Shown here in pieces: positions 7,335 through 32,713 of a stretch of 64,000 bases of DNA. Within the stretch, counting starts at the first letter, position 1; every line of letters begins with the position of its first letter. The notes beneath the pieces were generated by a model. That model searched no databases, was not told the origin of the DNA, and saw only the letters and a program-made list of their open reading frames with translations. The DNA comes from Halorubrum sodomense. GTDB taxonomy: Archaea; Halobacteriota; Halobacteria; Halobacteriales; Haloferacaceae. Location of the stretch: NCBI RefSeq assembly GCF_900111935.1, contig NZ_FOYN01000002.1, forward strand, positions 310,001 to 374,000. The letters are read 5' to 3'. The position numbers and the translations under genes are program-made.

Positions 7335-8337
7335 CGCTCTTGTGAAGTACATTGTTGGTGAGTCAGAGAACTCCTCGAATAATCTGTTTCAGTGCTTCTC
7401 GTCCCGGTTTGCGGAGGATTCGTCGCCGAAGTTGGAACGGTCTGAGATACGCTGTCAGTTTGTCCTTTGAGACGCCTCGATGCGGCGAGAGCCACCGTCG
7501 CGCCAGCGACGTGTGGCTCTCGCACGTGTTCACGTGTGCGTCTCCATCAACGTACTCGCCGTCACCGTGAATCACTGATTCTCGGTGGAAGCTCTCGTCA
7601 TCGTCGAGTGGATCGTAGGCTCGAAATCCGTCAGTATAGACAGTCAGCGACTCCTTCTCGTGGTTGTCGAGAAGGAGTCGCACCGTCGCTTTATCGGCGG
7701 ATTTCGCTGGGACGACGTATCGCTGGCCGCTGCCGCGATCAACGAGCGTGAACACTGGCGGTTTGTCCCCCTCATACCTTCCTCGTCCGCGTTTCGAGAG
7801 GGCACGCGAGCGCGACTCTTGGTCGCGCTCGCGGCCTTTCTTCCCGGCAGAGACGTAGAACTCGTCGATCTCAACCGGACCAACGAGGTGGATGGCTGGC
7901 GCGTCGAGCGTTCTGGCGAACTGCTCGACGCGCCGGCGAAGCGAGCGATACGAAACATCAATTTCAGCGTCTAGCTGGCGGATACTTGTGTTGAACCGGA
8001 GGAACGAGTAGAACGCGAACAGGAGCTTGCCGAGGCCGATCTTCGCGTGCGCGAAGATCGTGCCGGTTTTGTCGTTGAACGTGCGGTCGCAATCCTTACA
8101 GATATACCGTTGATACTCTCGATAGCTGCCGTGTTTGATCACCGACTCAGACCGGCAGCGCGGGCACTGGAGGCCCTCGCGCCAGCGAACCTGCTCCAGC
8201 AGGTTCGCGGCGCTCGCCTCTGAACTCAGCAATTCAAATGGGAACATTGCGTTCGGGCGACGCGTTCGCGTCACCCTTGCCTGCTACGCTTTCACAGCGA
8301 CAGCTCTACCCGACCAACAATCTGCTTCGGAAGAGCG
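7335..8337 (-). mobile_element. IS1595-family (ISH4-like) element, 1003 bp, with 8-bp target duplication
   Basis: Imperfect terminal inverted repeats of about 25 bases lie at 7335-7359 and 8313-8337 (outer core CGCTCTT, inner core TTGTTGGT). The direct repeat TATGTAGT sits immediately outside both ends (7327-7334 and 8338-8345). The single transposase frame is intact and on the minus strand. The element interrupts an intergenic stretch after the glycosyltransferase operon, next to an older transposase relic. Confidence 0.85.
7363..8247 (-). CDS. IS1595-family (ISH4 group) transposase
   Basis: The 294-residue product has an N-terminal zinc ribbon (CPRCRSESV then CKDCDRTF, residues about 27-56), followed by the ISXO2/IS1595-type catalytic domain beginning at VGPVEIDEFYVSAGKKG and containing VYTDGFRAYD. 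Late residues VNTCESHTSLARRWL match the region of the last catalytic position (N/H or E) of this family. ATG 8247 is used; an in-frame GTG at 8274 would add nine residues. It catalyses cut-and-paste transposition of its own element. No frameshift or stop is seen, so it may be active. Confidence 0.85.
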   Translation of the reverse strand: MFPFELLSSEASAANLLEQVRWREGLQCPRCRSESVIKHGSYREYQRYICKDCDRTFNDKTGTIFAHAKIGLGKLLFAFYSFLRFNTSIRQLDAEIDVSYRSLRRRVEQFARTLDAPAIHLVGPVEIDEFYVSAGKKGRERDQESRSRALSKRGRGRYEGDKPPVFTLVDRGSGQRYVVPAKSADKATVRLLLDNHEKESLTVYTDGFRAYDPLDDDESFHRESVIHGDGEYVDGDAHVNTCESHTSLARRWLSPHRGVSKDKLTAYLRPFQLRRRILRKPGREALKQIIRGVL

Positions 8338-8913: not shown

Positions 8914-10437
8914 TTAGTTTAAATGGATAATTTTGGAAAAAACTGGATATCCCATCTTATCGTCTATTTTGTGCGCAATCTGTTTGTCATCTGATGAGAA
9001 GGCTCCGGTTAGTGTTAACATATATACATAGCTAATTACAACTACTATTGGCAGAGCAACAGCAATGAGAATCTCTGAGTCAAGTTTTGAAGCAAGAGAC
9101 CAACCTAGTAGAATAGGGATGACTGCCGCCAAGTATGTTCGAAATAGTTGTGAAGTATATGGGTGTATATTTTTGAAAAAATAGATCTCAATGATACCAG
9201 CAAATCCAGCAACTGTAAGAGCACTTGCAGTACCGATTCCGGCACCGAGAATACCCATACGTGGAACGAGTATGATATCGAGTATTACATTAATAACAAC
9301 CAATAGTATTGAGTTAAAAAGCGTCAAACGAGTGAATCCTAATCCCTCTAGGACCATTCCTTCAGGGCCTGAAAAAGCGTTCAGCATATATCCGATTACA
9401 AGGGCAATTAGTGCGGTATTCGCTGCTGTGTATTCATTTGTGAAGAATATCGATAAATAGGCTTCAGGTGCTAGTGCGAGTGTAATCGCGATCGGAAGTG
9501 ATAGCATTGTTACCCACCGCGTAGCAAGTTGGAACCTCCTCCGGATCGTAGCTGTGTCCGAACTTGCTTCTGCTATCATTGGTTTGAATATTGGAGTAAT
9601 GGCTGTTAGTACGATCAGAAGGTTACTGCCGAGGAGATACGCGACTTGATACTGACCGACTTTGCTTGAAGTTAAGTAGTAACCAATGACGAAGAAATCG
9701 ATTTGACCGACTATAGAGTAGATTACACCAGCAAGCACTAGTGGTAACGAGTATGAAATGAGCGCTCGGTTTGAGATCGGTTGAGCAGTTGTCTCGCGAA
9801 ACCAGTCCAATTCGTATAAAAAGAATGTAATGCCAAATAATATAGTGACAGATATTCCGATTAGATGCCCACCAACCAGTCCAATGATTCCTGCTCCCCA
9901 ATATAAAAGAATAATAATACTAATGGTTCGCGTGATCGGATTTATTATGTTTTTCATTAAGACTCTGTACTTTATTTCTTTTACACTATTAAAAGTAGTT
10001 AATAATATATCATTGATAGTCTGAATCGGAATTAGGAGGCAGAATATAAGAAGTACAAATCCTAATTGAGGTTCCTCAAATACGCTTTCGATATACCCAC
10101 GAGAGATTACTAACAGAATAGCTCCGATCATAGAAGAAACAATGCCGATTACAAACGCGTTTTGTAGTGTTCTCTTTGCTTGGCCATAGTTTAATTCAGT
10201 CAAATATTTTGGGACAAAGTAATCAAGTGAGCGGTGTATGCTCAGGCTCGCAAAGCCCTGAACAAATATAACTATTGACAGTCCTAAAACGAACGTACCG
10301 TATTCCGATGAAGATGTTAATCGTGTGGCTACTGCTACGAATAAAAATCCGAGTAGCTTGCCAACGACGTTCCCGGCTAACCCGATTCCTCCCTGTGTAG
10401 CAAGGGTTGATGCGCCGTCGTCATTTTCATCGCCCAT
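8914..10437 (-). CDS. Wzx/AglR-type polysaccharide flippase
   Basis: This 507-residue integral membrane protein has about 14 hydrophobic helices typical of the MOP superfamily polysaccharide exporters. It begins with TLATQGGIGLAGNVVGKLLGFLFVAVATRL, the usual first helix, and ends in a charged tail. Its likely role is turning a lipid-linked glycan from the cytoplasmic to the outer face of the membrane. The start codon lies two bases after the stop of the upstream phosphatase-like gene on the same strand, so the two form an operon. AT-rich composition ties it to the transferred sugar island. Confidence 0.85.
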   Translation of the reverse strand: MGDENDDGASTLATQGGIGLAGNVVGKLLGFLFVAVATRLTSSSEYGTFVLGLSIVIFVQGFASLSIHRSLDYFVPKYLTELNYGQAKRTLQNAFVIGIVSSMIGAILLVISRGYIESVFEEPQLGFVLLIFCLLIPIQTINDILLTTFNSVKEIKYRVLMKNIINPITRTISIIILLYWGAGIIGLVGGHLIGISVTILFGITFFLYELDWFRETTAQPISNRALISYSLPLVLAGVIYSIVGQIDFFVIGYYLTSSKVGQYQVAYLLGSNLLIVLTAITPIFKPMIAEASSDTATIRRRFQLATRWVTMLSLPIAITLALAPEAYLSIFFTNEYTAANTALIALVIGYMLNAFSGPEGMVLEGLGFTRLTLFNSILLVVINVILDIILVPRMGILGAGIGTASALTVAGFAGIIEIYFFKNIHPYTSQLFRTYLAAVIPILLGWSLASKLDSEILIAVALPIVVVISYVYMLTLTGAFSSDDKQIAHKIDDKMGYPVFSKIIHLN

Positions 10438-10439
10438 AC

Positions 10440-12068
10440 TTAGCTGAGATAACCTAGATCGTCTAGCCGATCTTCAAGCTCAGATTCCTCTTCACTACTC
10501 CACTCACGACCTGTGTGACTGGACTTCCCGTATTTATCCGTCTTTGTGATCTCTCGCTCTTCTTGAATCTCCGCTGAAAACAGATCTGATAATACTCTCC
10601 CGTCCATGCTATTCGGTACCGGTTGTTCGAAGAGATACAATAGTGTTGGTGCGATATCCATTACCGAACTATTTTCAACCGAGCCAGTATCAAATGATGG
10701 TCCACTTGCGACGAGTATCCCGTCTCTTCGATGGTCTCCAGTCCGTTCTGCTCCTTTCTGTGATGAAGACTGAAGTAATGTCTCAGACTGTCCGCCTTTC
10801 AGTGTATACTCCGGTTTTGTTATGGCCACGAGATCTGGCGCGTCTTCAATTGCCCATCCTTCATATATTTCATCTTTTTCGTACACATTTTCAAGCAAAT
10901 CATCCCCGGTTTCAGGATGCTGAATAGACTGTAGCGATCGTTTGATCTCATCTACTAGAGTGTCGTACTGATCTTCTGTTATTATCCCTTTAGTGAATTT
11001 CTCTTCAATATTAATAAAGAACCCCTGTCCTGAAAGTGTGGTAAAGAACACATCCGTCTTTTCCCAGTCGACATCATTACGACGTTCACTCTTGAGACGC
11101 TGGCCGGTATCGACCCAAGATGCTGGTACAATCGATCTAATAAACTTATCTAAATCAGCCCGTTTGATAGTCTTCCAGCCTGCTTCAATTGAGGCTGAGA
11201 TAACAGTCTTTGTATTAAGCGAAAGAGACTGACGCGTCAGAAATCCCTCTTGCTCAAGCCATTCATCGATATGAATATCATGAGTTAACGGGCCGAAACC
11301 ATGATCTGAAATCACTAGGATATCACAATCTTCATCAATGTTATTCAGAATCCGACCAATTCCTTTGTCAACCATCTCGTAGTACTCTTCGATAGCTCCA
11401 TCTAATTTTTTGTCTTCAATGTAACGTGGATGTGACTCATCGAAATACTTCCAGAAGAAATGCTGTACTCGGTCTGAACCATCGTATACGGTCATCCCGA
11501 AATCGGTGTCAAATTGGTCTAATAACTCGCAAAAAACATCTGTTTGATGCTCTGCCACGTCATGTAGATTATCTCTGAAAGCTTCAAGATCTCCTTCGCT
11601 TTTTAGAGACCCATCTTCAAATAAATCATCAACGGGACCAACTTTTTCAGACAACGACTGCGGTACGGCAAAATCATCGACAGTACTCGGCGTCGGGAAT
11701 CCCGTCACCATATATCCAGAAACCTCGTCCGGGGGATAAGTAAATGGAATTTTAAATAACCCTGTCGATGTATTATGATCATTCATAACTTTCCAGAACG
11801 GTGTTGCTTTCCGATCTGTTGAGTTTATTGAACGTCGCCGATAATCCTCATCGAACCAACTAAAATCGTAAACACCATGTTTCCCCGGGTTGGTTCCGGT
11901 TTGAATCGAGTTCCAAGCTAAAGGTGAAACTGGTGGTATCGTCGATTCAAGTGGGCCAGAAACACCCTGTTCCTTGAGTCGGGCGAGATTCGGTAGTCGG
12001 CCGTCGGCGATCAAGGGACTGATGACATCCCATTCTCCCCCGTCAAGCCCGATCACCAGCGTATCCAT
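10440..12068 (-). CDS. Alkaline-phosphatase-superfamily phosphodiesterase/nucleotide pyrophosphatase-like protein
   Basis: The 542-residue protein belongs to the metal-dependent alkaline phosphatase superfamily. Metal-binding signatures are seen as VIGLDGGEWD at the start, the nucleophile region TIPPVSPLAWNSIQTGTNPGKHG around residues 43-66, and VISDHGFGP near residue 250 with downstream His residues. No signal peptide is evident, so it probably acts in the cytosol. Such enzymes often sit in haloarchaeal glycan clusters, where they may hydrolyse or transfer phosphate-linked sugars; the exact substrate is unknown. It is the first gene of a two-gene minus-strand operon with the flippase. Confidence 0.75.
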   Translation of the reverse strand: MDTLVIGLDGGEWDVISPLIADGRLPNLARLKEQGVSGPLESTIPPVSPLAWNSIQTGTNPGKHGVYDFSWFDEDYRRRSINSTDRKATPFWKVMNDHNTSTGLFKIPFTYPPDEVSGYMVTGFPTPSTVDDFAVPQSLSEKVGPVDDLFEDGSLKSEGDLEAFRDNLHDVAEHQTDVFCELLDQFDTDFGMTVYDGSDRVQHFFWKYFDESHPRYIEDKKLDGAIEEYYEMVDKGIGRILNNIDEDCDILVISDHGFGPLTHDIHIDEWLEQEGFLTRQSLSLNTKTVISASIEAGWKTIKRADLDKFIRSIVPASWVDTGQRLKSERRNDVDWEKTDVFFTTLSGQGFFINIEEKFTKGIITEDQYDTLVDEIKRSLQSIQHPETGDDLLENVYEKDEIYEGWAIEDAPDLVAITKPEYTLKGGQSETLLQSSSQKGAERTGDHRRDGILVASGPSFDTGSVENSSVMDIAPTLLYLFEQPVPNSMDGRVLSDLFSAEIQEEREITKTDKYGKSSHTGREWSSEEESELEDRLDDLGYLS

Positions 12069-12158: not shown

Positions 12159-12623
12159 ATGATTCATGGTGTAGATGTCCGCGACCTCCAAGTCAATACC
12201 GACGAACGGGGACACCTCGTTGAGATGTTCCGCGAGGACTGGGACGAGTACAACCCGGAACCCGCTATGTCCTATTACTCGATGAGCTACCCGGGAGTGA
12301 TTCGGGCGTGGCACCGCCATATCCGCGGCCAGATCGACCACTTTGTCTGCCCCCAAGGCCGTATCAAAGTCGGTGTGTACGACGATCGCGATGACTCGCC
12401 GACGCAAGGTGAGGTGAACACCTTCGTTATCGGCGAACACAACCAACAAGTCGTCCGAATCCCCGGCTTGTGCTGGCACGGCTTCAAGGTAATCGGCAAC
12501 GAACAGGCGCTACTCGTGAACTTCCCGACGAACCTCTACGACTACGAGGACCCCGACGAGGAGCGACTTCCACACGACACCGACGAGATTCCGCTCGACT
12601 GGGAGGCTGACCCCCACGAATGA
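12159..12623 (+). CDS. rmlC: dTDP-4-dehydrorhamnose 3,5-epimerase-like cupin
   Basis: This 154-residue cupin should epimerise carbons 3 and 5 of dTDP-4-keto-6-deoxyglucose on the route to dTDP-rhamnose. It shows the family's opening pattern (DERGHLVEMFREDW) and the active-site stretch PGVIRAWHRHIRGQIDHF with conserved histidines. It is slightly shorter than bacterial RmlC (about 180). It overlaps the start of the nucleotidyltransferase gene by 4 bases, and rmlD and rmlB homologues follow, completing the four-step pathway. A related sugar 3-epimerase or isomerase function cannot be excluded. Confidence 0.85.
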   Translation: MIHGVDVRDLQVNTDERGHLVEMFREDWDEYNPEPAMSYYSMSYPGVIRAWHRHIRGQIDHFVCPQGRIKVGVYDDRDDSPTQGEVNTFVIGEHNQQVVRIPGLCWHGFKVIGNEQALLVNFPTNLYDYEDPDEERLPHDTDEIPLDWEADPHE

Positions 12624-13693
12624 AGGGCGTCCTCCTCGCCGGTGGGACCGGCTCGCGCCTGCGTCCCATCACGCACACGGGTCCGAAACAGCTCGTCCCT
12701 GTCGCGAACAAACCGGTGATCCAGTACGCGATCGAGGACCTCCGCGAAGCGGGAATCTCGGAGATCGGCGTCGTCCTCGGCAACAAGGGTCGCGAGGCGA
12801 TCCAATCGTTCCTCGGTGACGGAAGCGACTTCGGCGTCGATATCACCTACATCGTCCAGGGGCGACCCCTAGGGCTCGCCCACGCGGTCGGCTGTGCGGA
12901 GTCGTTCGTCGACGGCGACGACTTTGTCGTCTACCTCGGCGACAACATGCTCAAGCGCGGCATCGTCGATGTCGTCGACGGGTTCCGTGCTGGCGAGTTC
13001 GACGCCGGGATCGCCCTCCAGGAGGTCGACAACCCGACACAGTTCGGAATCGCGGATGTCGACGAAGATGGCAGGGTCACTCGGCTCATCGAGAAGCCGG
13101 ATGATCCTCCCTCGAATCTCGCGCTTATCGGGATCTACGTCTTTACTCCGCGCATCTTCGACGCGATCGAGGCGATCAAACCCTCGTGGCGCGGCGAATT
13201 GGAGATCACCGACGCGATTCAACACCTGCTCGACGACGGCGGCGCGATCGACTCTCAGGTCGTCGAAGGCTGGTGGAAAGACACTGGAAAGCCGGAGGAC
13301 GTACTCGAAGCGAATCGACTGGTACTCGAGGGCCTCGAAGCGACACGGGCTGGCTCCATCGACGCGGACGCCAAAGTCGAGGGCCGGGTCGACCTCGCAG
13401 AATCCTCACAGATCGAATCGGGGGCGGTCGTCCGCGGACCCGTGTCGATAGCCGAGAACACAACGGTCGAAACGGGCACGTACGTCGGACCGTACACCGC
13501 GATCGGCGCAAACTCCACGATCCGAAACGCTCACATCGAGAACAGCGTCGTGGTCGGGGAGACCGAGATCACGACGAGCGGGCGGATCATCGATAGCTTG
13601 ATCGGTCGTGGAGCCGCGATCGGAAGCGCCGAAGGGAAGCTCCCGGAAGGTCGTCGACTCGTGGTCGGCGAGAACTCACAGCTCGAACTGTAA
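12620..13693 (+). CDS. rmlA: Glucose-1-phosphate thymidylyltransferase, long form
   Basis: The 357-residue enzyme couples glucose 1-phosphate with dTTP. The catalytic domain begins with LLAGGTGSRLRPITHTGPKQLVPVANKP and contains VYLGDNML for metal binding. After about residue 240 the sequence becomes a left-handed beta-helix with hexapeptide repeats (for example VRGPVSIAENTTV), as in the long archaeal RmlA forms. ATGA overlap with rmlC indicates coupled translation. It supplies dTDP-glucose to the rmlB and rmlD products encoded just downstream. Confidence 0.88.
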   Translation: MKGVLLAGGTGSRLRPITHTGPKQLVPVANKPVIQYAIEDLREAGISEIGVVLGNKGREAIQSFLGDGSDFGVDITYIVQGRPLGLAHAVGCAESFVDGDDFVVYLGDNMLKRGIVDVVDGFRAGEFDAGIALQEVDNPTQFGIADVDEDGRVTRLIEKPDDPPSNLALIGIYVFTPRIFDAIEAIKPSWRGELEITDAIQHLLDDGGAIDSQVVEGWWKDTGKPEDVLEANRLVLEGLEATRAGSIDADAKVEGRVDLAESSQIESGAVVRGPVSIAENTTVETGTYVGPYTAIGANSTIRNAHIENSVVVGETEITTSGRIIDSLIGRGAAIGSAEGKLPEGRRLVVGENSQLEL

Positions 13694-13695
13694 CC

Positions 13696-13875
13696 ATGCG
13701 TGTCATCACCCTCGAATGTCCGGACTGTGGAACCGTCGTCGCCGCGAACGAACTCGAAGACAATCGGATCATGAAGTGTCCCGGCAGCGACTGTGAGACC
13801 GTCCTCCGGTTCGATGACCTCTCGGAAGACGACCAGTCGTTCTATCTGGAGAACAAAGAACAGTACCGACTCTAA
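13696..13875 (+). CDS. Small zinc-ribbon protein within the rhamnose cluster
   Basis: A 59-residue protein starts two bases after the rmlA stop, so it is probably in the same transcript. It has a CPDC knuckle at residues 9-12 and a second pair of cysteines spaced C-x4-C at about 28-33 (CPGSDC), fitting a compact zinc ribbon, then an acidic helical tail. I do not recognise a specific family. Its 3' end overlaps the converging rmlD gene by four bases. A regulatory or protein-binding role is a guess from size only. Confidence 0.7.
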   Translation: MRVITLECPDCGTVVAANELEDNRIMKCPGSDCETVLRFDDLSEDDQSFYLENKEQYRL

Positions 13876-14750
13876 AGTAGATCTGCGAGATCTTCTGCGA
13901 GCGTCGACTGGGGACGATCGAGTGCCGCTTCCACCGCCACCGTATCGAGACACGTGTACTGTGGTCGTTCCGCGTCCCGATCGATATCGTTCATTGAACT
14001 CTCCGTGAGCGTCGCGTCCGCGAACCCCGCTTCCTCGACGATTTGTTCGCCGAACTCGTAGGGCGTGACACAGGATCGGCTCGCGACGTTGAACGTCCCC
14101 TCCTGATCGGCTTCGAGGAGATCTAACAGGGTCTTGGCAGTCGCCTTTGCGTACGACGGTGACACTCGTTGATCGGTGAACAACGGGATCTCGTCGCCCT
14201 TGCGTGCCTTCTCAAGAACCCACGCCGGGAAGCCCGATACTGATCCGTCCGGTAGAGAACGACCGTACACGAACGACAGGCGGGCGATTAGTGGATCTGG
14301 ATGTGTCTCGCGAACACGACGCTCCCCCGCGAGTTTCGATTCGCCGTACACTTGTTTTGGGGCGGGTTCGGCAGTCTCCGAATAGGGTGCTGTCTCCTCA
14401 CCGCCAAAGACGTAGTCTGTCGAAGTGTGGATGAGTGCGGCGTCAGCGCTGTCAGCGGCCCGCGCCACGTGTTCGGCACCGTCTACGTTGACCGCATGAG
14501 CTTGCTCCGGATCGGTTTCACATCCGTCAACGTCCGTCATCGCCGCACAGTTGACGATCGCGTCAGGATCGGCTTCGGTGACAAGATTGTCTACCGCAGT
14601 CGATGAGGTAATATCGATCTGATGGCTCGGACAGTCAAATTTCGGCTCCCCTGAGTGGTATGCGGCCACGACGGCCTTGCCCCGGTTGAGTGCGACCGAT
14701 GTGACGTTTCCACCCAGTAAGCCGTTCGCGCCCACCACGAGTACCCGCAT
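13872..14750 (-). CDS. rmlD: dTDP-4-dehydrorhamnose reductase
   Basis: This 292-residue short-chain dehydrogenase performs the last NAD(P)H-dependent step of dTDP-rhamnose synthesis. The N-terminus has the nucleotide-binding VVGANGLLGGNV, followed by STDYVFGGEETAPYSE and the catalytic YGESKLAGE. ATG 14750 is chosen over the upstream in-frame start at 14804, because it begins exactly at the Rossmann strand (MRVLVVGANG) and leaves a 53-base divergent promoter gap from rmlB. It converges on the small zinc-ribbon gene. Confidence 0.87.
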   Translation of the reverse strand: MRVLVVGANGLLGGNVTSVALNRGKAVVAAYHSGEPKFDCPSHQIDITSSTAVDNLVTEADPDAIVNCAAMTDVDGCETDPEQAHAVNVDGAEHVARAADSADAALIHTSTDYVFGGEETAPYSETAEPAPKQVYGESKLAGERRVRETHPDPLIARLSFVYGRSLPDGSVSGFPAWVLEKARKGDEIPLFTDQRVSPSYAKATAKTLLDLLEADQEGTFNVASRSCVTPYEFGEQIVEEAGFADATLTESSMNDIDRDAERPQYTCLDTVAVEAALDRPQSTLAEDLADLL

Positions 14751-14803
14751 GCGGACCGGTCTGATAGATAGTGATTTATAGGTGACGACGTACCCTCGAA
14801 CCA

Positions 14804-15724
14804 ATGCGTGTGCTCGTGACCGGCGGCGCCGGGTTCATCGGTTCGAACTTTGTCCACTACCTCCTCGAAACGACGGACCATCACGTCGTGACGCTTGATT
14901 CGCTTACTTACGCCGGGACGACTGAGAATCTCTCCGAAGTTCTTGACAACGAGCGTCACCGGTTCGTCGAGGGGGATATTCGAGACGAAGAGCTCGTCGG
15001 TGATCTCGTCAAGGACTGTAACGTAATCGTCAACTTTGCCGCCGAATCTCACGTCGACAGGTCTATCCAAGACGCCGAACCCTTCGTCTCGACGAACGTC
15101 GACGGAACGCGAACGCTACTCGATGCTGCGCTGGAACACGACCTCGATTCCTTCGTCCAAATCTCGACTGATGAAGTGTACGGCACAATCGAATCTGGAA
15201 GCGTGACCGAAGAGGCGCCTCTCGATCCGAGAAACCCCTACTCGGCGACAAAAGCGAGTGCCGACCTTCTCGCATTGAGTTATCACACGACGCATGATCT
15301 TCCAGTCATGGTGACGCGGTCGTCGAACAACTACGGTCCCTACCAGCACCGTGAGAAACTCATCCCGAAGTTCATCACACGCGCGGCCGCAGGTGAGACG
15401 CTTCCGGTGTACGGCGACGGCTCGAACGTTCGTGAGTGGCTGTACGTCGAGGATAACTGTCGAGCGATTATGACCGTGCTTGAAAAGGGCGCTCCGGGGG
15501 AGGTGTACAATATCGGAAGCGGAACGGAGCTGACGAACATTGATGTCACCGAACGAATCATCGAGATGGCGGGTGGCTCGGACGATCAGATCGAATTCGT
15601 CGAGGACCGTCCCGGTCACGATCAACGATACTCCCTTGATGCGACCAAACTTCGATCGCTGGGATGGGAACCGGAACGAAGCTTCGAGAATGGGTTAGCA
15701 GAGACCGTCGAACACTATCTCTAA
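14804..15724 (+). CDS. rmlB: dTDP-glucose 4,6-dehydratase
   Basis: The 306-residue extended SDR enzyme converts dTDP-glucose to the 4-keto-6-deoxy sugar. Visible motifs are TGGAGFIGSNFV for NAD, AAESHVDRS, ISTDEVYG with the active-site Asp-Glu pair, and YSATK. Downstream, VREWLYVEDN is typical of the family. It is divergently transcribed from rmlD across a 53-base gap, completing a four-gene rhamnose pathway. Length fits archaeal RmlB. Rhamnose is therefore a likely component of the surface glycan made here. Confidence 0.9.
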   Translation: MRVLVTGGAGFIGSNFVHYLLETTDHHVVTLDSLTYAGTTENLSEVLDNERHRFVEGDIRDEELVGDLVKDCNVIVNFAAESHVDRSIQDAEPFVSTNVDGTRTLLDAALEHDLDSFVQISTDEVYGTIESGSVTEEAPLDPRNPYSATKASADLLALSYHTTHDLPVMVTRSSNNYGPYQHREKLIPKFITRAAAGETLPVYGDGSNVREWLYVEDNCRAIMTVLEKGAPGEVYNIGSGTELTNIDVTERIIEMAGGSDDQIEFVEDRPGHDQRYSLDATKLRSLGWEPERSFENGLAETVEHYL

Positions 15725-19571: not shown

Positions 19572-20288
19572 TTAGTTCCTCTCGCTCTCCCCCCGGATCA
19601 ATTCGCCTGCCCGCTCAACGTCGTCCGGCGTGTTCACGTTCACGCGCTCACCCACTCGAACCGTCGCGACCTCGTACCCCGCCCGCACCAACAACCCCAC
19701 GGCCTCGCTCAGCTGATACTCGCCCTCGGCCGACGGCCGGAGCAGCGCACACGCGTGAAAGACATCTTCAGGAAGCACGTAACACCCGGTCGTCACGAGC
19801 GTCGACGACGGCTCGGCCGGTTTCTCGACGAGTCCCCTCACGCGTCCCCGCTCGCCCGTCTCGATCACGCCGGTCGTCGCCGCAATCTCGGGCGAGACCT
19901 CCTCCACCGCGAGCGCGGCGTCCGCCTCCCCGACAGCCTCCACCGCCGGCTCGACACTCCCGGAAAAGACATTATCGCCGTTCACGAGCAGGAACGTCCC
20001 GTCGACGTGCGGCTCCGCCTGTACCACCGCGTGCCCGAGCCCCAGCCGCTCGCGCTGGTGGACGTACGTGATCGGGACGCCCTCGAAGACGTCGCCGAAC
20101 CGGTCGACGATCTGCGCCGCCTCGTAGCCGACGATCACGACCAGCTCGTCGGCTCCGGCCTCGGCCGCCGTCTCGAACACGTGCGCGAGCAGGGGACGCC
20201 CCGCGACCTCGACGAGCCCCTTCGGTCGGTCGTCGGTCAGCTCGCCGAGTCGACTGCCGCGCCCGGCAGCGGGGATGACCGCGTCCAT
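19572..20288 (-). CDS. Sugar nucleotidyltransferase, intact copy
   Basis: This 238-residue enzyme of the RmlA/AglF type begins MDAVIPAAGRGSRLGELTDDRPKGLVEVAGRP, with the nucleotide-binding loop intact, and has LLVNGDNVF at the metal site. ATG 20288 is chosen over the upstream start at 20318, because it sits right at the first beta strand. It is the parent or sister of the truncated copy at 17710. Sugar and base preference are unknown, but the gene belongs with the surrounding glycan loci. A short upstream gap with TATAAT-like sequence separates it from the divergent toxin-antitoxin pair. Confidence 0.82.
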   Translation of the reverse strand: MDAVIPAAGRGSRLGELTDDRPKGLVEVAGRPLLAHVFETAAEAGADELVVIVGYEAAQIVDRFGDVFEGVPITYVHQRERLGLGHAVVQAEPHVDGTFLLVNGDNVFSGSVEPAVEAVGEADAALAVEEVSPEIAATTGVIETGERGRVRGLVEKPAEPSSTLVTTGCYVLPEDVFHACALLRPSAEGEYQLSEAVGLLVRAGYEVATVRVGERVNVNTPDDVERAGELIRGESERN

Positions 20289-20404
20289 ACGGGGACTGGG
20301 ACACACCAGCAACCTCAATTCATTGGTCGCTATAATACGCTCGTGTTGAGAAAACCAGAGAGGTTGTCGAACACGAGTTGATACCTCTCTTGAGTAGCCG
20401 ATAT

Positions 20405-21587: not shown

Positions 21588-22574
21588 CTACGACTCCCGC
21601 ACTAACGGCTCGTACCACTCGCGATTCGCCTGATACCACTCGATGAACTCCCCGACGCCCTCCGCGATCGTCCGCGAGGGCTCGTACCCGATCACCTCGC
21701 CGGCCTTCTCGACGGACGCGTGCGTGTGTTCCGCGTCGGCCTCGCGCGCTGGCTCGTACTCGATCTCCAGATCGGGCGCCAACTGATCCCGAACTGTCTC
21801 GGCCAGCTCCTGAATCGAGATGTTATCTGAACTCCCGATGTTCAACACGTCGCCGTCGGCCGCGTCCGACTCTAGCAGCGTCCGGTTCGCGTCCACGATG
21901 TCGGCCACGTACGTGAAGTCGCGCGTCTGTTGGCCGTCTCCATAAATCACCGGCGGCTCACCGTTCACACACCGCGAGACGAAATTCGAGATGGCCATGT
22001 TCGGCCGCATCCGCGGGCCGTACACGGTGAAGTAGCGCAGACACACCGTCGGCAGGCCGTGGAGCTCCGTGTACACCCGCGCCATGTGCTCCTGTGTGAG
22101 CTTCGTCACGCCGTAGGGACTCACGGGCTCGGTCGGGTGGTCCTCCTCGTAGGGTAACGAGCGGGGCTTCCCGTACACCGACGACGAGCTCGCGAGGATC
22201 ACTCGCTTCACGTCCGCCCCCTTCGACGCCTCTAAAAGATTTACCGTCCCGTCGACGTTGATACCGGTCACATTCTGCGGATTTTTCATACTCTCGCGAA
22301 CCCTGGCCTGTGCGGCTTGGTGAACAACGACATCCGTATCGGCGACAAGCTCTTTAACAGTGTTCGGGTCTCGAACGTCGTCCTCCACGAACCGGTAGTC
22401 GACATCTCGCTCCTCGTCTACCTCGCGGTGGATGTCGAGCGTGTGGCGCTTGATCCCCTCGGCGTAGAAGGGTTCGAAGTTATCGAGGACCGTCACTTCA
22501 TGGCCGTCTTCGAGGAACGACTCGGCGAGGTGGCCGCCGATGAATCCGGCCCCTCCCGTCACGAGGACTCGCAT
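21588..22574 (-). CDS. NAD-dependent sugar epimerase (UDP-glucose 4-epimerase/UDP-glucuronate epimerase type)
   Basis: This 328-residue extended SDR enzyme interconverts nucleotide sugars. It has the NAD motif TGGAGFIGGHL, the Ser in ILASSSSVYGKPRSLPYEED, and catalytic YGVTK, followed by LPTVCLRYFTVYGPRMRPNM, a common feature of UDP-glucuronate and UDP-glucose 4-epimerases. ATG 22574 is chosen because the alternative at 22598 only adds eight residues before the Rossmann strand. It would supply a donor sugar for the polyprenyl-phosphate sugar transferase and glycosyltransferases of the region. The exact substrate is not determinable. Confidence 0.83.
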   Translation of the reverse strand: MRVLVTGGAGFIGGHLAESFLEDGHEVTVLDNFEPFYAEGIKRHTLDIHREVDEERDVDYRFVEDDVRDPNTVKELVADTDVVVHQAAQARVRESMKNPQNVTGINVDGTVNLLEASKGADVKRVILASSSSVYGKPRSLPYEEDHPTEPVSPYGVTKLTQEHMARVYTELHGLPTVCLRYFTVYGPRMRPNMAISNFVSRCVNGEPPVIYGDGQQTRDFTYVADIVDANRTLLESDAADGDVLNIGSSDNISIQELAETVRDQLAPDLEIEYEPAREADAEHTHASVEKAGEVIGYEPSRTIAEGVGEFIEWYQANREWYEPLVRES

Positions 22575-22669
22575 AGCGACTCTTCCGGTGGCCGACACAA
22601 CACTCGCGCGGTTCCTCCGTTGATCGTTTTAACAGCGTTGCAGGAGAACCACGGCTGTTTTCGATAGTA

Positions 22670-23002
22670 TCACGGCCATACCGCCACCACGTCCGCAACG
22701 GCCTTCCACAGCTGTCGCGCCACGATTTTCAGGTCGTACGCGAACGGGAGCTTCGCCCGCGGGTCGACGCTGCTCGCGTCGTTGATCTGCGCGAGGCCGG
22801 TCAGGCCGAGCTTGACGAACCACCGCTTGCGCCACGTCTCCGCCTCGTCTTCCAGCAGGTGCTCCTCCTCGGTCCAGACTGCCCGCGGCCCGACGACGCT
22901 CATATCGCCCCGGAGGATCGACCACAGCTGCGGGATCTCGTCGAGATGCTTTCGTCGGAGTGACCACTTCCGCAGCACAGCCGCCTCACTATCCCTCTTC
23001 AT
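22670..23002 (-). pseudogene. Polyprenyl-phosphate sugar transferase, C-terminal fragment
   Basis: These 110 codons correspond only to the last part of a WcaJ/PglC-type sugar transferase: [34 protein letters not shown] followed by [19 protein letters not shown]. The membrane domain and the sugar-nucleotide-binding first half are missing. It overlaps the end of the complete gene (22989-24455) by 14 bases. Most probably it is the remnant of a tandem duplicate. A functional half-protein is unlikely. Confidence 0.75.
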
Positions 23003-24455
23003 CCGTTACAATTGCTGCGGCATCGACTAACACCTTCCAAATCTGCCGCGTCACAATTTTCATATCAAAACTGAACGACTGCCGCTTGATGTACTGGAGG
23101 TCATATCGGATCTTTCGATCTGGTTCCTTGCCCGTCACGTCGTTGATCTGCGCGAGCCCAGTCAGTCCGGGCTTCACGAACCACCGCTTCGGCCAGTCGT
23201 CGACGCCGTGTTGGATGTCGGCGTCGATCTCCGGACGTTCGGGTCGCGGCCCGACGACGCTCATTTTGCCCGACAATACGGCCCACAGCTGCGGCATCTC
23301 ATCGAGGTGTGTCTGTCGTAACACGCGCCCGACGCGCGTCACCCGAGGGTCGACGCCACCCTCATCCTCGTCGCTGATCGTCGCGCCCGTCACCGACTCG
23401 GCGTCTTCGACCATCGACCGGAACTTGTACACGTCGAACGTTTCCCCGAACACCGCCGTCCGCTCCTGCTGATACAGGATCGATCCCCCGTCGTCCAGCT
23501 TGATCGCAATCGCGATGGCGAGGATAACCGGTGACAGTCCGATCAATCCCGCTCCCGCGAACGCGACATCGAACGCGCGTTTCATGATGTGGTCTTGAAC
23601 GTCCCACGGTTCGATATCGACATCGACGAGGGTCCCCGGGTCGTCTTCGGCGAGCAATACCACGTCTGCGGTGTCGCGGTGCGCCTTCGCCGCGACGCCG
23701 TGTTCGTAGCAGGCGTCGAGCGCGCCGAAAAACTCGGCTCGGTCCGTCTCGCCGAACGCCAAAATGACCGTATCGACATCGTGTGTGACCAGTACGTCTT
23801 CAAGCCGAGAGAGGCCGCCGAGCTGTTCGAGGCTGATATGTAGCTCTCTCCCCCCGTCTGCCACGGACGCGGCCTCTACGGTTGTCCCCTCTTGGTCGTC
23901 CGCCGATTGACTGCGAGCTCCCATGTTCGCTTGTGTGGAGAACAAATACCCGAGAAGTGTTAGATCTGTTTCACGGGCAGCGTGCGCGACCCGTGAAATC
24001 TCCGCGAGATCATCTCCGACGATGACCGCGCGCTCGCTGCGCGCCTCGGGACGGCGGAGCCAGACGAACCACGCCGGCAGGACGACCAGCAGCAGCGGCG
24101 TGATCAACACGAGCGTCAGTCGCGGCACCTTGTACGTGTAATCGAAGTAGCCGATGGCCGCCAGCGCGAACACGGCCACGAAGGTGCGCTTGTGCGCGAG
24201 CGCGACGATGTCGAGGATCCGCCGCGGGCGCGGCTTGTACAGCGGGACGAACGCGCCCGTCACGACCGCGACGGTCAGCGCGACCTCGATGACGAACTCC
24301 GCCCCGGTGGGCGGGTCCACGGGGAGCCGGGCGAGAACGGGCGCGGTCGACACGGTCGCCTGGACGGCGCCGTTGTTGACGAGCATCACCGCCAGCCCGA
24401 CCAGCGCGGCGACGCCACCAACGCTTGCGACCCGATACCCCCAACCGGTGTCCAT
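22989..24455 (-). CDS. Polyprenyl-phosphate sugar-1-phosphate transferase (WcaJ/WbaP-like)
   Basis: The 488-residue membrane enzyme starts glycan assembly by moving a sugar 1-phosphate from a nucleotide sugar to a polyprenyl phosphate. Four or five hydrophobic helices (residues about 9-150) are followed by a Rossmann-like CoA-binding-type domain. The catalytic domain follows: [33 protein letters not shown] (re-entrant helix), YKFRSM, and the catalytic Asp-Glu in [24 protein letters not shown]. Such phosphoglycosyl transferases feed Wzx/Wzy-type pathways, which fits the flippase and polymerase-like genes upstream. It is divergent from the STT3 gene. Confidence 0.87.
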
Positions 24456-24658: not shown

Positions 24659-27157
24659 ATGCCCTCGCCTGAGGAGACGACCGCGGCCGCGCGCGACTTC
24701 CTCGCGGCCCACCCGGAGGCCGAAGCCGCCCTCGCCGCCCTCGTCGAGCGCGACGACCGCGGCGAGCCGTGGACGTTCGCCGACATCGACCTCGACTCCG
24801 GCCGGTTCGGCGACCTGGTCGCTCGCGACCTCGCCCGCGAGGTCGACGACGGGTACCGGCTCCGGAACCCGGACGCGGTCCGCGCCGCGATCGAGGCGGG
24901 CCCGGCGGACGCGGACGACGCGTCCGGCGCGGCTTCGGAGGGAGCTGACGCCGACGCGATCGGGGCCGACGACGCGCACACCGAGTCGAATTACCTCGCG
25001 GTCCCGGACGTCGACGCCCTCACGCTGCTCGGCCTCGTCGGCGCGCTGCTCGCGGTCGCCGCCGCGCGCCTCGTCGCCGCCCCCGCGGTGTTCCAGCAGG
25101 GGTTCGTCGTCTCGCCGGCCAACGACACGTACTTCTTCCGCTACTGGCAGGAGCGGCTGGTCGCCCGCGCCGACGGGGTTCTCGATCTGGGGCTGTTCGC
25201 GGACATGGGCGGGGCCGCGGGCACGCGCCCCCTCGCGCACGCGACGAACTGGTGGGTGACGGTCCTGCTCGGCGGGGTCGACGCCGCGCCCGCGGTCGCC
25301 GCGTGGCTCCCGGTCGTCGCGTCCGTCTGTCTGGGCTACCTCGTCTACCGGCTCGCGCGGCTGCTCACCGGCGACGTCCGCGTCGCGCTCGCGGCGGTGC
25401 TGTTCTACGGGCTCGCGCCCGCCAACGTCGTGTACACCTCGGTCGGCTTCCTCGACCACCAGGCCCACCAGTACCTGTGGCTTGGCCTTCTCGTTCTGAC
25501 GCTGACCGCGCTCGGGGTCGACGCGGCGCGGCGGACGGCTCGGACCGACCCGCGGGCGGCCTCGCGGGCGCACGCTCGTGACGCGACGATGTGGCTCGTC
25601 GCGCTCGGGCTCGCCGTCGCCGTGGCGGCGTCCGCGCACGCCTACGGCGGCTCGCCGCTGACCTTCGTCCCCGTCGCGGCCGTCGTCGGGCTCCGCGTCG
25701 CGCTCGACGTGCGCCGCGATGTCTCGCCGGCCGCCGCCAACGCCCCGCTGCTCGGCGGCCTCGCGCTCGGGGCCGGGCTGGCGCTCGCGGCGCATCTCGG
25801 GCTGGGGTGGCACGAGTCGATCGCCGCGGTCACGCCCGTCCTCGTGGCCGGGGGCGCGCTCGTCGTCGTCGGCCTGGGCGAGCTGTGGCGCCGCGTCGCG
25901 TGGCCGCCGCTCGGGCTCGTCGCGGCCGAAGCGGTCGTCGCCGCCGGCGGGCTCGTCACGTACGCGCGCCTGCGTCCGGGCGACATCGAACGACTCCGGG
26001 CGCGCGCCGGCGACCTGTTCTTCCGCGAGGGGATCTCCGAGACGGTGTCGCTGTTCAGCCCGGACTTCGCGGTGGTGTTCGGGCCGCTGCTCCAGCTCGG
26101 GCTCGGCTTCTACTTCGCGGTCGCCGTCCTCGCGGTCGCGACGTGGGCGGTCGCCCGGCGCTACGAGCCCGGGTGGCTCGTCCTCGTCTGTTTCGCGTGG
26201 TACTACACGCTGCTCGCGACGATTCAGGTCCGGTTCGCCGGGCAGCTGGCGATCATGATCGCGCCGTTCGCGGGGGTCGGGCTCGTCTACCTGCTCGCAG
26301 CGATCGACATCGCGCGTCCCGTGGCCGCCCTCGGGCGCGGCGACGACGCCGACTCCCGGTCGCGTCGGGCTCGGTCGGGCCGCGCTCGAACGGACGAATC
26401 CGGTTCGGGCGACGAGCGGGCGATCACGTCGCTCGCGCTGCCGGAAGGCACTCGCCTGCGCGGGTACCTCGCCGCGACGGTCGCGCTGGTGTTGCTGTTC
26501 AATCTCCTGCTCGTGCCGTCGCTCGTCGGGCAGACGACCCACGACCGGGCGCAGTTCGACGCCGCGCTCACGGTCGATTCCCACGCCGAGGCGGTCGGCC
26601 GCGAGTACCCGCGGAACTTCGTGTTGAGTCGGTGGGGCGACAACCGCATGTACAACTACTTCGTGAGCGGCGAGGCGCGGAGCTACGGCTACGCGCGGAG
26701 CACCCACGCCCAGTTCCTGTCGTCGCCCGACCCGGACGCCTGGTACGATCGCTTCCGGGGGCGGGTCGGATACGTCGTCGTCACCGAGCGCGAGACCGCG
26801 CCCGCGGCGAACGCCACGTACGCGGCCCTCCACGAGGGGCTCGGGCTCGGCGTCAACGGCACCGCCCCGACCGGCCACTACCAGTTGCTCGCGAGCGACG
26901 ACGGCGTGCGGACGTTCGCGGTCGTCCCCGGGGCGACGATTCAGATCTCGGCCCCGAGCGGCGAGCAAGTGACCGCCACGACAATGGTGACGGCCGGCGG
27001 GGCCACCTACGAATACGCGCGTAGCGCAACAGTTGTGAACGGCACCGCGACGATTCGAGTCGCGCATCCCGGCGAGTACCAGGTGGGGAATCGCACGGTT
27101 ACCGTGACGAACACGGATGTTTTCGCGGGTAATCAGACGACGGTCCCGTCTTCGTAG
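24659..27157 (+). CDS. STT3/AglB-family oligosaccharyltransferase, divergent paralogue
   Basis: The 832-residue membrane protein should transfer a lipid-linked glycan to asparagines of surface proteins. A soluble N-terminal segment (about 120 residues) is followed by roughly 12 helices. The first acidic motif appears as PANDTYFFRYWQ, the second as GFLDHQAHQYLW, and the WWDYG-like catalytic motif is altered to RWGDNRMYNYF near residue 660. The C-terminal soluble domain is short. Classical haloarchaeal AglB is longer and keeps WWDYG, so this is a paralogue that might use a different glycan or acceptor. The S-layer gene is 2.4 kb downstream. Confidence 0.8.
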   Translation: MPSPEETTAAARDFLAAHPEAEAALAALVERDDRGEPWTFADIDLDSGRFGDLVARDLAREVDDGYRLRNPDAVRAAIEAGPADADDASGAASEGADADAIGADDAHTESNYLAVPDVDALTLLGLVGALLAVAAARLVAAPAVFQQGFVVSPANDTYFFRYWQERLVARADGVLDLGLFADMGGAAGTRPLAHATNWWVTVLLGGVDAAPAVAAWLPVVASVCLGYLVYRLARLLTGDVRVALAAVLFYGLAPANVVYTSVGFLDHQAHQYLWLGLLVLTLTALGVDAARRTARTDPRAASRAHARDATMWLVALGLAVAVAASAHAYGGSPLTFVPVAAVVGLRVALDVRRDVSPAAANAPLLGGLALGAGLALAAHLGLGWHESIAAVTPVLVAGGALVVVGLGELWRRVAWPPLGLVAAEAVVAAGGLVTYARLRPGDIERLRARAGDLFFREGISETVSLFSPDFAVVFGPLLQLGLGFYFAVAVLAVATWAVARRYEPGWLVLVCFAWYYTLLATIQVRFAGQLAIMIAPFAGVGLVYLLAAIDIARPVAALGRGDDADSRSRRARSGRARTDESGSGDERAITSLALPEGTRLRGYLAATVALVLLFNLLLVPSLVGQTTHDRAQFDAALTVDSHAEAVGREYPRNFVLSRWGDNRMYNYFVSGEARSYGYARSTHAQFLSSPDPDAWYDRFRGRVGYVVVTERETAPAANATYAALHEGLGLGVNGTAPTGHYQLLASDDGVRTFAVVPGATIQISAPSGEQVTATTMVTAGGATYEYARSATVVNGTATIRVAHPGEYQVGNRTVTVTNTDVFAGNQTTVPSS

Positions 27158-29509: not shown

Positions 29510-32500
29510 ATGACAAACGACAATACAACACGCAAGAAGGCTAACTCAGTCTTCTTCGCGGCGGTCATGGTCATCTCCATGGTTGCTGTCGGATTCGCTG
29601 CCGCGCCTGCCGCGGCCGCGAACAACCCGACGGTCAACACCTTCACCAACACGAATGTGGACGGTGGAGAAACTGTGACCCATAGTGTAGACTTCACAGT
29701 AGATAACATCTCCGACGACGGAGATACGGACACGTTCACACTTGCTCTGCCCACGCAGGCAGAGATTGTGAGCGGTCCCAGTAGCTTCACCATCGTGGAT
29801 GCATCTGGAGACCCCATCAGCACCTCTGGTGGTCCGTCTCTCGCTGACGCAAACGGCGGAACTAACAACGCACTCACGTTCGACATCTCGCCTGCCACGA
29901 TGGCTGACGCTCGTGACGTGACCGTTAGCTTCTCGGCAGAGGTCGAGTGGGCTAGCGTTGGATCTGACACGACCGGGGATATCCTGCTTTCCGTTACCGA
30001 CAGTGGTAACGCAGATCTCGATAACGTCGACATCGGCGACATCAACATTGCGGCCGCTGGCGCTCCGTCTCTCGACAAGCGCCCGCTCCACTTCGCTGCG
30101 AACGATGATACCAACCTCGACAGCCTCGGTAGCTTTACTGCCGACAGCGGTGATGGTATCCTCGAACTGGCGTTCGAGCAGAGAGTCAAGGACAACGGGA
30201 CCGTTACGATCCTCAACCGTACCGGCGGTGAGGTTGCCACCTTTGACCTGAGCGATGCGGGTAACGGAAACGTCTACGTAAGCGATTCCAGCGGCCTTGT
30301 CCTGCTCAACACTGACGATGTCGTTCAGCAGGTTGGTGACATCGAGATTGACGGTGCGGAGCGCTACGGTGTTTCCAGCTCCAACGCCGAGAACTCGGAC
30401 ATCACGAGTGAAGCTCGGTTCCTCGGTAGCACCATCGCCGACGGTCAGGCTGACAGCAATGTCTTCCAGGGCACGACGATCGCCTTCGTCAACGCGTCCG
30501 ACGACACTACCGACGTGACGATCTCGAGCGAAAGCGAGTTCGCCACGCGCGGCTCTGGTCCGAACAGCATCGTCGCTGCCTTCAGCACCGACGGTCGGGC
30601 CACCGAGGAGTACGAAGTGACCGGCGACGTCGCCGCGAACTTCACGCTTCGGAACCTCAACCTCGACGTCGAGCTTGACTCGACGAACCTCACCACCAGC
30701 GACGCGCTGACGGGGACCGTCTCGGCGGCCTCCTCGGACCGCACCGTGCTCGTCGAAGCGATCGACGAGGACGACGAAGTCGCTGCGTCCAGCGAAGTCG
30801 CTCTCGGCGGCGACGCTGAGGGAACCTTCGACCTTGGCACGCTCGCGACCGGCGAGTACGAGGTCGAAGTGACTGACCTCGCATCCGGTGCGTCCGTCAC
30901 CTCCGACGCGGTGACCGTCACCGAAGCGCCTGAGGGTGACCTCACCTTCGAAGATAGCTTCATCACCCAGGAGCGTGGTGACGTCGCTAACATCACGGTC
31001 AACTTCCAGGGCGACCTCGAAACCGCGTACCTCACCATCGGTGACAACGAGGAAGTCGGGTACGAGACCAACATCACCGTCGAGTCCGGCGGTGAAGACA
31101 GCGTTACGGTCGGCTTCAACACCTTCGCTGCGGGTAACACCACCGCGACCGGTGTCCCCACGAGCGACATCGCGTACGTCGCTGACAGCGATAGTGACGC
31201 CACCGTGACCGTTCACAACCAGACGACCGGCCTCAACAACCTGCTCGCTGCGGGTACGTACCCGTTCGAGATGAGTGCCGACGGCTTCGGCGCAATCGCT
31301 AGCGGGAACGCCGAAGCGGTCGGCGACCTCGAACTCGAAGCGCGCGGCGTCCAGAACTTCCGTCTGTGGACCACCTCGACTACCGTCTACGAGAACGTCG
31401 AGAACGTCCAGGACATCACGAGCGCGGTCGAGAACAGCTCCGTCGTTCAGACCAGCTCGCTGGTTGAGGGCGACGTCCTTATCCACGAACTCAGCGCGAC
31501 GGGTCTCGAGGGTGCCATCCGAGCGAACGGTGGCAGTCTCGCTGACCTGATCGGCAACGGCGTCGACGTCCGCATCCGGCAGACGGCCGACACCACTGCG
31601 CCGAACTCGCCGCGCAAGCAGATCGACCTCACTCAGATGATCGACAACGGCAACGTTGACGTCATCTCGACTGAGGGTTCGTACTTCATCGCGTTCGACG
31701 AGGACAACGTCGTCCTTCAGGACGACACTCGCTCCATCGCTGACGGTGACGCCTTCGAGGTCCGCGTCCAGGTCCGGAACGAGCGCCTGCTCGATCCCGA
31801 CGAGGACGCACTCGCTGAGGCCGACGGTCTCTCCGAGTTCTACGAGACCGCGAACGCGACCTTCGAGTACCTCGATGCGACTGGCGAATTCAACACGCCG
31901 GTCGAAGTGACGAACGCCGAGAACCAGAGCATCTCGGGCACGACGAACGTCGCGCCCGGTCAGGAGTTCACGGTCCGCGTGCGCTCCGACTCTGACGTCT
32001 CGCCCGGCTTCGTCCAGACCGCCGAGGACGTGACCGTCCAGCCGGACGGCACCTTCACGGCGACTGGGCTCGACCTGAGCGACGCCTCGGTGAACGACAC
32101 GTTCACCGTGACGGCGCAGCAGGCGACCTTCAGCGCCGAGGCAGACGGCACCGTGGTCGCGGCGGACGCGCCCGCGGCAGCCAGCTTCCAGGTCTCCGAG
32201 CTTAGCCCGCAGGACGTGACCGCGACGGTCGGCGACACGCTGACCGTGACGGCCACGATCGAGAACACGGGCGAGCAGGAAGGCACCCAGACTGTCGAGT
32301 TCCGCGTTGGCGGTAACGCGGTCGCCAGTCAGGAAGTCACGCTCGCCGGTGGCAACAGTACCACCGTCGAGTTCGCCAACGTCGACACCTCCAGCCTCGA
32401 CGCCGGCGAGTACGAGCACGGTGTCTTCACCAACAACGACGAGCAGACCGCGACGCTGACGCTCGAAGCCGCCGACTCCGGTACCGGCGACGGTACCGGT

Positions 32501-32713
32501 GACGGCTCCGGCGACGGCTCCGGTGACGGCTCCGGCGACGGCTCCGGTGACGGCTCCGGCGACGGCTCCGGTGACGGCTCCGGCGACGGCTCCGGTGACG
32601 GCTCCGGTGACGGCTCCGGCTCCACCGACGGCAGCACGCCCGGCTTCGGTGCCATCGTCGCGCTCGTTGCCCTCATCGCCGCTGCGCTGCTCGCGACCCG
32701 CCGCAACGACTAA
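29510..32713 (+). CDS. csg: S-layer (cell surface) glycoprotein with PGF-CTERM anchor
   Basis: The 1067-residue precursor begins with a surface-glycoprotein signal peptide (KKANSVFFAAVMVISMVAVGF then AAAPAAAA). The mature part is acidic, beta-rich and carries about a dozen N-glycosylation sequons (such as NGT, NRT, NLT, NQT, NDT). A Gly-Asp-Ser repeat linker (32480-32621) precedes TPGFGAIVALVALIAAALLA and RRND, the PGF-CTERM tripartite signal cut and lipid-anchored by archaeosortase A. ATG 29510 fits the signal peptide; an earlier frame opening at 29405 does not. It forms the surface lattice and is the likely acceptor for glycans made by the cluster upstream. Confidence 0.92.
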   Translation: MTNDNTTRKKANSVFFAAVMVISMVAVGFAAAPAAAANNPTVNTFTNTNVDGGETVTHSVDFTVDNISDDGDTDTFTLALPTQAEIVSGPSSFTIVDASGDPISTSGGPSLADANGGTNNALTFDISPATMADARDVTVSFSAEVEWASVGSDTTGDILLSVTDSGNADLDNVDIGDINIAAAGAPSLDKRPLHFAANDDTNLDSLGSFTADSGDGILELAFEQRVKDNGTVTILNRTGGEVATFDLSDAGNGNVYVSDSSGLVLLNTDDVVQQVGDIEIDGAERYGVSSSNAENSDITSEARFLGSTIADGQADSNVFQGTTIAFVNASDDTTDVTISSESEFATRGSGPNSIVAAFSTDGRATEEYEVTGDVAANFTLRNLNLDVELDSTNLTTSDALTGTVSAASSDRTVLVEAIDEDDEVAASSEVALGGDAEGTFDLGTLATGEYEVEVTDLASGASVTSDAVTVTEAPEGDLTFEDSFITQERGDVANITVNFQGDLETAYLTIGDNEEVGYETNITVESGGEDSVTVGFNTFAAGNTTATGVPTSDIAYVADSDSDATVTVHNQTTGLNNLLAAGTYPFEMSADGFGAIASGNAEAVGDLELEARGVQNFRLWTTSTTVYENVENVQDITSAVENSSVVQTSSLVEGDVLIHELSATGLEGAIRANGGSLADLIGNGVDVRIRQTADTTAPNSPRKQIDLTQMIDNGNVDVISTEGSYFIAFDEDNVVLQDDTRSIADGDAFEVRVQVRNERLLDPDEDALAEADGLSEFYETANATFEYLDATGEFNTPVEVTNAENQSISGTTNVAPGQEFTVRVRSDSDVSPGFVQTAEDVTVQPDGTFTATGLDLSDASVNDTFTVTAQQATFSAEADGTVVAADAPAAASFQVSELSPQDVTATVGDTLTVTATIENTGEQEGTQTVEFRVGGNAVASQEVTLAGGNSTTVEFANVDTSSLDAGEYEHGVFTNNDEQTATLTLEAADSGTGDGTGDGSGDGSGDGSGDGSGDGSGDGSGDGSGDGSGDGSGDGSGSTDGSTPGFGAIVALVALIAAALLATRRND
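32480..32621 (+). repeat. In-frame repeat encoding the Gly-Asp-Gly-Ser linker
   Basis: A 12-base unit close to GGCGACGGCTCC is repeated about eleven times, encoding (G-D-G-S)n just before the PGF-CTERM segment. Synonymous variation (GGC/GGT, GAC constant) shows copies are not perfectly identical. Confidence 0.85.

Follow-up and report, generated by a model that had tools for sequence, protein, structure and literature searches.

A haloarchaeal STT3-superfamily family without the WWD motif and its association with an early asparagine of the S-layer glycoprotein

The STT3-like gene and its relatives

The window (the whole stretch of 64,000 nucleotides of Halorubrum sodomense DNA that was analysed) contains an open reading frame with an ATG start coding for an STT3-fold protein of 832 amino acids. 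Sugar genes, coding for glycosyltransferases, a Wzx-type flippase, a repeat-unit polymerase and dTDP-rhamnose-type functions, are located upstream of it. The genes of the locus are:

1135–2061, forward: GT2 glycosyltransferase
2018–3403, forward: repeat-unit polymerase, Wzy-type (TIGR04370, 92.4 bits; cut-off 40)
4939–6111, forward: GT4 glycosyltransferase
6089–7177, forward: GT4 glycosyltransferase
8914–10437, reverse: Wzx/MOP-type flippase (PF13440, 96.9 bits)
10440–12068, reverse: type I phosphodiesterase/nucleotide-pyrophosphatase-fold protein
12159–15724: dTDP-rhamnose-type nucleotide-sugar genes (RmlC, RmlA, RmlD, RmlB-like)
19572–20318, reverse: nucleotidyltransferase
21588–22598, reverse: NDP-sugar epimerase/dehydratase
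22989–24455, reverse: polyprenyl-phosphate sugar-phosphate transferase (PGT; PF02397, 198 bits)
24659–27157, forward: second STT3-fold oligosaccharyltransferase-like protein, 832 aa
27646–28902, forward: solo TnpB-type RNA-guided nuclease
29510–32713, forward: S-layer glycoprotein, 1067 aa, with signal peptide, PGF-CTERM and 15 N-x-S/T sites past the signal peptide

A sequence-only reading of this DNA had placed the STT3-like gene between a polyprenyl-phosphate sugar transferase gene and the S-layer gene, which is accurate except that the solo TnpB gene intervenes before the latter. The S-layer protein scored 292 bits with NF041335 (below the cut-off of 1100) and 46 bits with the PGF-CTERM profile (above its cut-off). 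Two further transposase genes (4099–4851 and 7363–8274) break up the sugar cluster, and a fragment of a second PGT (22670–23002, reverse strand; PF02397 positions 83–160, 71.7 bits), probably the scar of a cassette exchange, lies just downstream of the intact one.

The 832-residue protein scored 96.2 bits with TIGR04154 (archaeo_STT3), under the cut-off of 450, and had no match to Pfam PF02516 (STT3) at E ≤ 1 (gathering threshold 24.5); its relatives L200 (29.4 bits) and L022 (31.8 bits) passed the latter profile. The AlphaFold model of the protein (47 sequences, pLDDT 89.2) found its best structural match in Archaeoglobus fulgidus AglB (AfAglB; Z 33.6, 644 residues, 4.0 Å), and model and structure comparison together reveal a multi-TM GT-C fold with a C-terminal globular domain, which gave a weak match (19.6 bits) to the AglB_L1-type domain. 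Near-full-length relatives (BLAST E ≤ 1e-50) were present in 70 of the 146 genomes of the order, including a partial member in genome G099; the remainder of the 95 matches covered only the N-terminal domain or the C-terminus of AglB. This distribution, together with the well-modelled AglB-like fold, indicates a real gene and bears out the earlier identification of an STT3/AglB paralogue; a pseudogene or chance reading frame was rejected given the widespread relatives and the catalytic acids invariant in 47/47 members (see below).

In a tree of 47 family members (46 loci, taken from the best 80 of 123, and the window protein) and 14 AglBs, the family formed a clade apart from AglB on a single branch (SH-aLRT 100). 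Named carriers among the best 80 of the 123 loci include Halorubrum, in which the nearest named relatives of the window protein are found, Natrinema, Natrialba, Haloarcula, Halorussus and others, and some members are labelled "STT3 domain-containing protein" in RefSeq. No match to the family was found in viral contigs. One genome has a second family copy interrupted by three stops (G145:C1:2937879-2940293). In five members (L122, L126, L133, L140 and L332) the C-terminus carries a Laminin-G/concanavalin-like domain (PF13385) that may bind glycans or the S-layer.

AglB itself scored over the cut-off in 141/146 genomes, and an AglB was listed in all 70 family-positive genomes. The search for a canonical aglB elsewhere in the genome, proposed in the earlier reading as a check, located one on another contig (G000:C7:235732-238605; TIGR04154 907.7 bits, cut-off 450), adjoining an AglG-type transferase gene (515.6 bits, cut-off 440). 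The window protein is thus not the sole STT3 of its genome, so the case that the earlier reading named as its refutation does not apply.

Residues 1–80 (24659–24898, forward strand) form a predicted cytosolic domain whose homologues make up the N-terminal part of haloarchaeal EMC3/TMCO1-type insertases. Modelled alone, this stretch behaved as a separate domain (pLDDT 89.3). It also matched the N-termini of proteins of about 300 aa, one of which was scanned and proved EMC3/TMCO1-like (PF01956, 158 bits), while a PDB search with the domain alone gave no clear match (best E 0.51). One may speculate from this homology that an EMC3/TMCO1-like (Oxa1 superfamily) domain ties glycosylation to membrane insertion at the fresh N-terminus.

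Catalytic residues and the replaced WWD motif

Residue equivalences were taken from a profile alignment to the AfAglB chain. The relevant features of the window protein, all on the forward strand, are:

25121–25126: N155-D156, with D156 aligned to catalytic D47 of AfAglB (first DXD Asp); 47/47 members
25454–25462: D266-H267-Q268, with D266 and Q268 aligned to the metal-site residues D161 and H163; variable in the family (D/E; H/R/Q)
26039–26041: E461, aligned to E360 of AfAglB (TIXE/SVSE Glu); 47/47 members
26627–26662: residues 657–668, SRWGDNRMYNYF, in place of S-W-W-D-Y-G; WWD in 0/47 members

In AglB, the acid pair D47 and E360 twists the amide of the acceptor Asn, and WWD(YG) binds the acceptor Ser/Thr at sequon position +2, as described in passages of PMC7226087 and PMC8342417. 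The sequence-only reading had noticed SRWGDNRMYNYF where AglB has W-W-D-Y-G and had called it a rearranged catalytic motif. The rearrangement is real, but "catalytic" is imprecise, as WWDYG is the binding site of the +2 residue, and D156 and E461, the catalytic acids, remain in place. The PANDTYFFRYW stretch that it had reported in the first loop is likewise present; it contains N155-D156 and is unremarkable, N-D being common to AglB and the window protein.

Eight positions (N155, D156, H267, E461, R525, F526, W659 and N666) are invariant in all 47 members, and N662, R663 and N666 are near-invariant in the same alignment. SWWDYGH was kept in 31/31 canonical AglBs examined, and the WWD motif was absent from all 47 aligned family members. 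In an ungapped comparison of VLSxWG with VMSWWD, whose register was set by eye because the profile alignment ends before the motif, the first Trp is lost, and the Asp is lost in 45/47. Since none of the 47 has WWDYG, we classified these proteins as a distinct family of the STT3 superfamily and not as AglB. The residues at the positions of R154, D161 and H163 of AfAglB were R-D-H in 16/47 members, Y-E-R in 15/47, Y-D-Q in 9/47 (including the window protein), Y-D-H in 5/47, and Y-D-P and Y-D-N in 1/47 each. Judging from residues 259, 266 and 268, the Y-E-R and R-D-H members may represent two biochemical subtypes, perhaps with different use of metal, and catalysis could be altered in some members.

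The family therefore shares with AglB (A. fulgidus 3WAK/5GMY/7E9S; TIGR04154) the fold, the D47 and E360 equivalents and the R-F of the phosphate side, and differs from it in the replaced WWDYG, the variable metal site and the extra N-terminal domain. PglB and eukaryotic STT3 have the fold in common with the window protein, at 12–14% identity in the structure alignment, but possess WWD.

Associations with lipid-diphosphate genes and S-layer N-termini

Genome counts are related by descent; stratification by family or genus, as used for the Cochran–Mantel–Haenszel (CMH) tests below, lessens the effect of kinship and does not remove it. PGT genes (PF02397) were found in 68/70 family-positive compared with 28/76 family-negative genomes (Fisher 3e-16; CMH by family 1.5e-12, by genus 2e-5). 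Where family gene and PGT co-occurred (68 genomes), a PGT was no more than 10 kb from the family gene in 33 cases and no more than 60 kb from it in 55, against 0/68 and 1/68, respectively, for AglB. Proteins of the PGT cluster were encoded at 48 of the best 80 named loci plus the window, some loci being shortened by contig ends. The family is linked to PGT and BacA genes, whereas AglB is linked to AglG-type transferases.

In Salinigranum and Haloplanus plasmids, the gene next to the family member codes for an undecaprenyl-diphosphate phosphatase, and for this reason BacA (PF02673) was tested across genomes. It was present in 60/70 family-positive and 25/76 family-negative genomes (4e-11; CMH by genus 3e-4), within 5 kb of the family gene in 12/60 and of AglB in 0/60. 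Ten family-positive genomes had no BacA match and two had no PGT. In the genome that contains the window, the undecaprenyl-diphosphate phosphatase gene (G000:C8:305100-305861) is found some 29 kb upstream, a short way beyond the edge of the window. BacA recycles lipid diphosphate, a residue that only diphosphate donors leave behind. Given that the donors of euryarchaeal AglB are monophosphates (PMC8342417, in part), the genome context suggests that the donor of the window paralogue is likely a lipid diphosphate, a donor type also used by PglB and eukaryotic STT3.

The S-layer glycoprotein of Halobacterium salinarum carries a repeating-unit glycan at Asn-2 that is built on dolichyl diphosphate, is sensitive to bacitracin and persists when Ser-4 is replaced by Val, Leu or Asn; the relevant passages of PMC2952790 term this tolerance unexplained and mention the single oligosaccharyltransferase gene found at that time. 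In view of these data, the mature N-termini of S-layer proteins were read across genomes. The candidate S-layer protein was the best match per genome to the TIGR04207 signal peptide, and cleavage sites were set by rule and are thus predictions. The test covered 123 genomes (95 in a first batch, 28 in a second) out of the 146 plus G146–G149, leaving out those without a signal-peptide match or without a match in the 650–1350 aa frame; under this length rule a later match was used for G017, G021, G039, G052, G079, G106, G115 and G142. G095 and G139 were retained though weak, the window S-layer protein was entered by hand, the unparsed G058 was scored negative, and G124 was negative under the strict rule though its N-terminus reads V-A-A-N-H.

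An Asn within the first six mature residues was found in 63/70 family-positive compared with 14/53 family-negative genomes (2e-13; CMH by genus 1.3e-4). The seven family-positive exceptions include the unparsed one. For Asn exactly at position 2 the counts were 43/70 and 2/53 (Fisher 3e-12; CMH by family 6e-8, by genus 9e-4), and among genomes with PGT but without the family it was seen in 1/13. The strict Asn-2 rule was written only after the first 95 N-termini had been viewed. Among the 28 later N-termini, the strict rule gave 3/12 versus 0/16 (p 0.067) and the first-six rule 10/12 versus 2/16 (p 3e-4), or 8/10 versus 1/14 (p 5e-4) when previously viewed genomes were removed. The link between the family and an early S-layer Asn is therefore firm, and that with exactly Asn-2 is weaker. 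In the window, the codon of the predicted mature Asn-2 (A-N-N-P, cleavage by rule) and proposed acceptor is at 29621–29623 (forward strand); a mature start at N-A-S was considered and rejected. The S-layer gene lay within 10 kb of the family gene in 5/68 genomes, showing that adjacency is local to some genera and not general.

A proposed N-terminus-directed oligosaccharyltransferase

Ser/Thr at +2 is a near-universal need in N-glycosylation, Asn-2 of the H. salinarum S-layer protein being one exception. The combined data point to a distinct and widespread STT3-superfamily family that would act as a lipid-diphosphate-dependent oligosaccharyltransferase on N-terminal Asn without a +2 requirement, a reading to which we assign a probability of roughly two in three. 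The gene content speaks for a putative second oligosaccharyltransferase of different acceptor and glycan specificity, in support of the earlier proposal of a different sequon or glycan specificity. In the order we propose, the neighbouring PGT would start the glycan on polyprenyl diphosphate, the glycosyltransferases would lengthen it, Wzx would flip it and Wzy would polymerise it. The STT3 paralogue would then move it to the Asn at the very beginning of the S-layer protein, the likely acceptor, right after removal of the signal peptide. D156 and E461 would activate this Asn in the manner of AglB, Ser/Thr at +2 would not be needed because the WWD pocket is lost, and the lipid diphosphate left over from the transfer would be recycled by BacA. 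The pairing with a Wzx/Wzy-type pathway suggested by the earlier reading is supported by the Wzx-like protein, the repeat-unit polymerase over its cut-off and the co-occurrence with PGT and BacA. PGT, Wzx, repeat-unit polymerase and nucleotide-sugar genes are common to the window and bacterial Wzx/Wzy pathways, from which the locus would differ in its final step, an STT3-fold transfer to protein. A polymeric product is likely at the window locus, given the Wzy found there; TIGR04370 was present in 15/146 genomes of the order, too sparse for an association test.

A second oligosaccharyltransferase with a lipid-diphosphate donor could instead use ordinary N-x-S/T acceptors through a rebuilt +2 pocket (N-R-M-Y-N), the early Asn being incidental. 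The retained TIXE-like E461, near-invariant N662, R663 and N666 that could bind the +2 residue, and the many N-x-S/T sites of the window S-layer protein are in keeping with this. We nevertheless consider it improbable, as the early Asn follows the family across taxa and the residue at +2 of Asn-2 was Ser in 7/43 and Thr in 0/43 (Asp, in 11, and Ala, in 9, being the most frequent), a share of Ser/Thr that does not exceed the one at other Asn (32/107). Somewhat less probable still is a polysaccharide or glycolipid ligase whose acceptor for the Wzx/Wzy glycan is not a protein but a lipid or exopolysaccharide: the lost sequon motif, the Wzx/Wzy/PGT surroundings and the lipid-modifying ArnT among the GT-C structural matches would suit such an enzyme, but all 47 members have the acids for activating the Asn carboxamide, and the family is associated with S-layer N-termini and lies next to S-layer genes in some genera. 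That the family is a regulatory or inactive pseudo-oligosaccharyltransferase is very unlikely; the varying metal-site ligands would suit it, but D156, H267, E461 and R525 are invariant in 47/47 over long branches. The missing enzyme of the AglB-independent Agl15 (low-salt) pathway of Haloferax volcanii, whose gene is yet to be named according to part of PMC8241124, is the least credible candidate, as the H. volcanii control genome shows neither PF02397 nor PF02673, found in nearly all and in most family-positive genomes, respectively, and part of PMC5898192 assigns to that cluster HVO_2052, a member of a different PMT/STT3-like family.

The proposed N-terminus-directed enzyme may fit the Asn-2 repeating-unit glycan of H. 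salinarum, by analogy in lipid-diphosphate donor, repeat-unit glycan, N-terminal Asn and absence of a +2 Ser need; that system is known as an activity and not as a gene. In a broader and more tentative scheme, to which we give somewhat less than even odds, haloarchaea would possess both AglB, using dolichyl monophosphate and N-x-S/T, and a sequon-independent, lipid-diphosphate-dependent enzyme placed at emerging N-termini by its insertase-type cytosolic domain, which would explain the H. salinarum Asn-2 glycan. The role of AglB at this site was still described as unclear in 2019 (PMC6591318, in part). Among titles and abstract openings we found no paper describing a second, WWD-less haloarchaeal oligosaccharyltransferase, and the AglB phylogeny of Nikolayev 2020 may hold prior notice; in the excerpted text of the Halorubrum sp. 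PV6 paper, matches to "Asn-2" were Asn-267, Asn-273 and similar, with no Asn-2 site. The divergent STT3 family offers a specific candidate gene for a glycosylation left unexplained since the 1990s and, if the proposal is true, a possible tool for sequon-free glycosylation of protein N-termini. The published H. salinarum aglB primer stretches had no full match in the 13 genomes of genus g31 (best 20/23 and 21/24). Four genomes of this genus are family-positive; the S-layer proteins of three start with A-N (ANAD, ANAS and ANEV) and that of the fourth with QAGN, and in two of the four, G064 and G149, no more than about 6 kb separates this S-layer gene from the STT3 gene.
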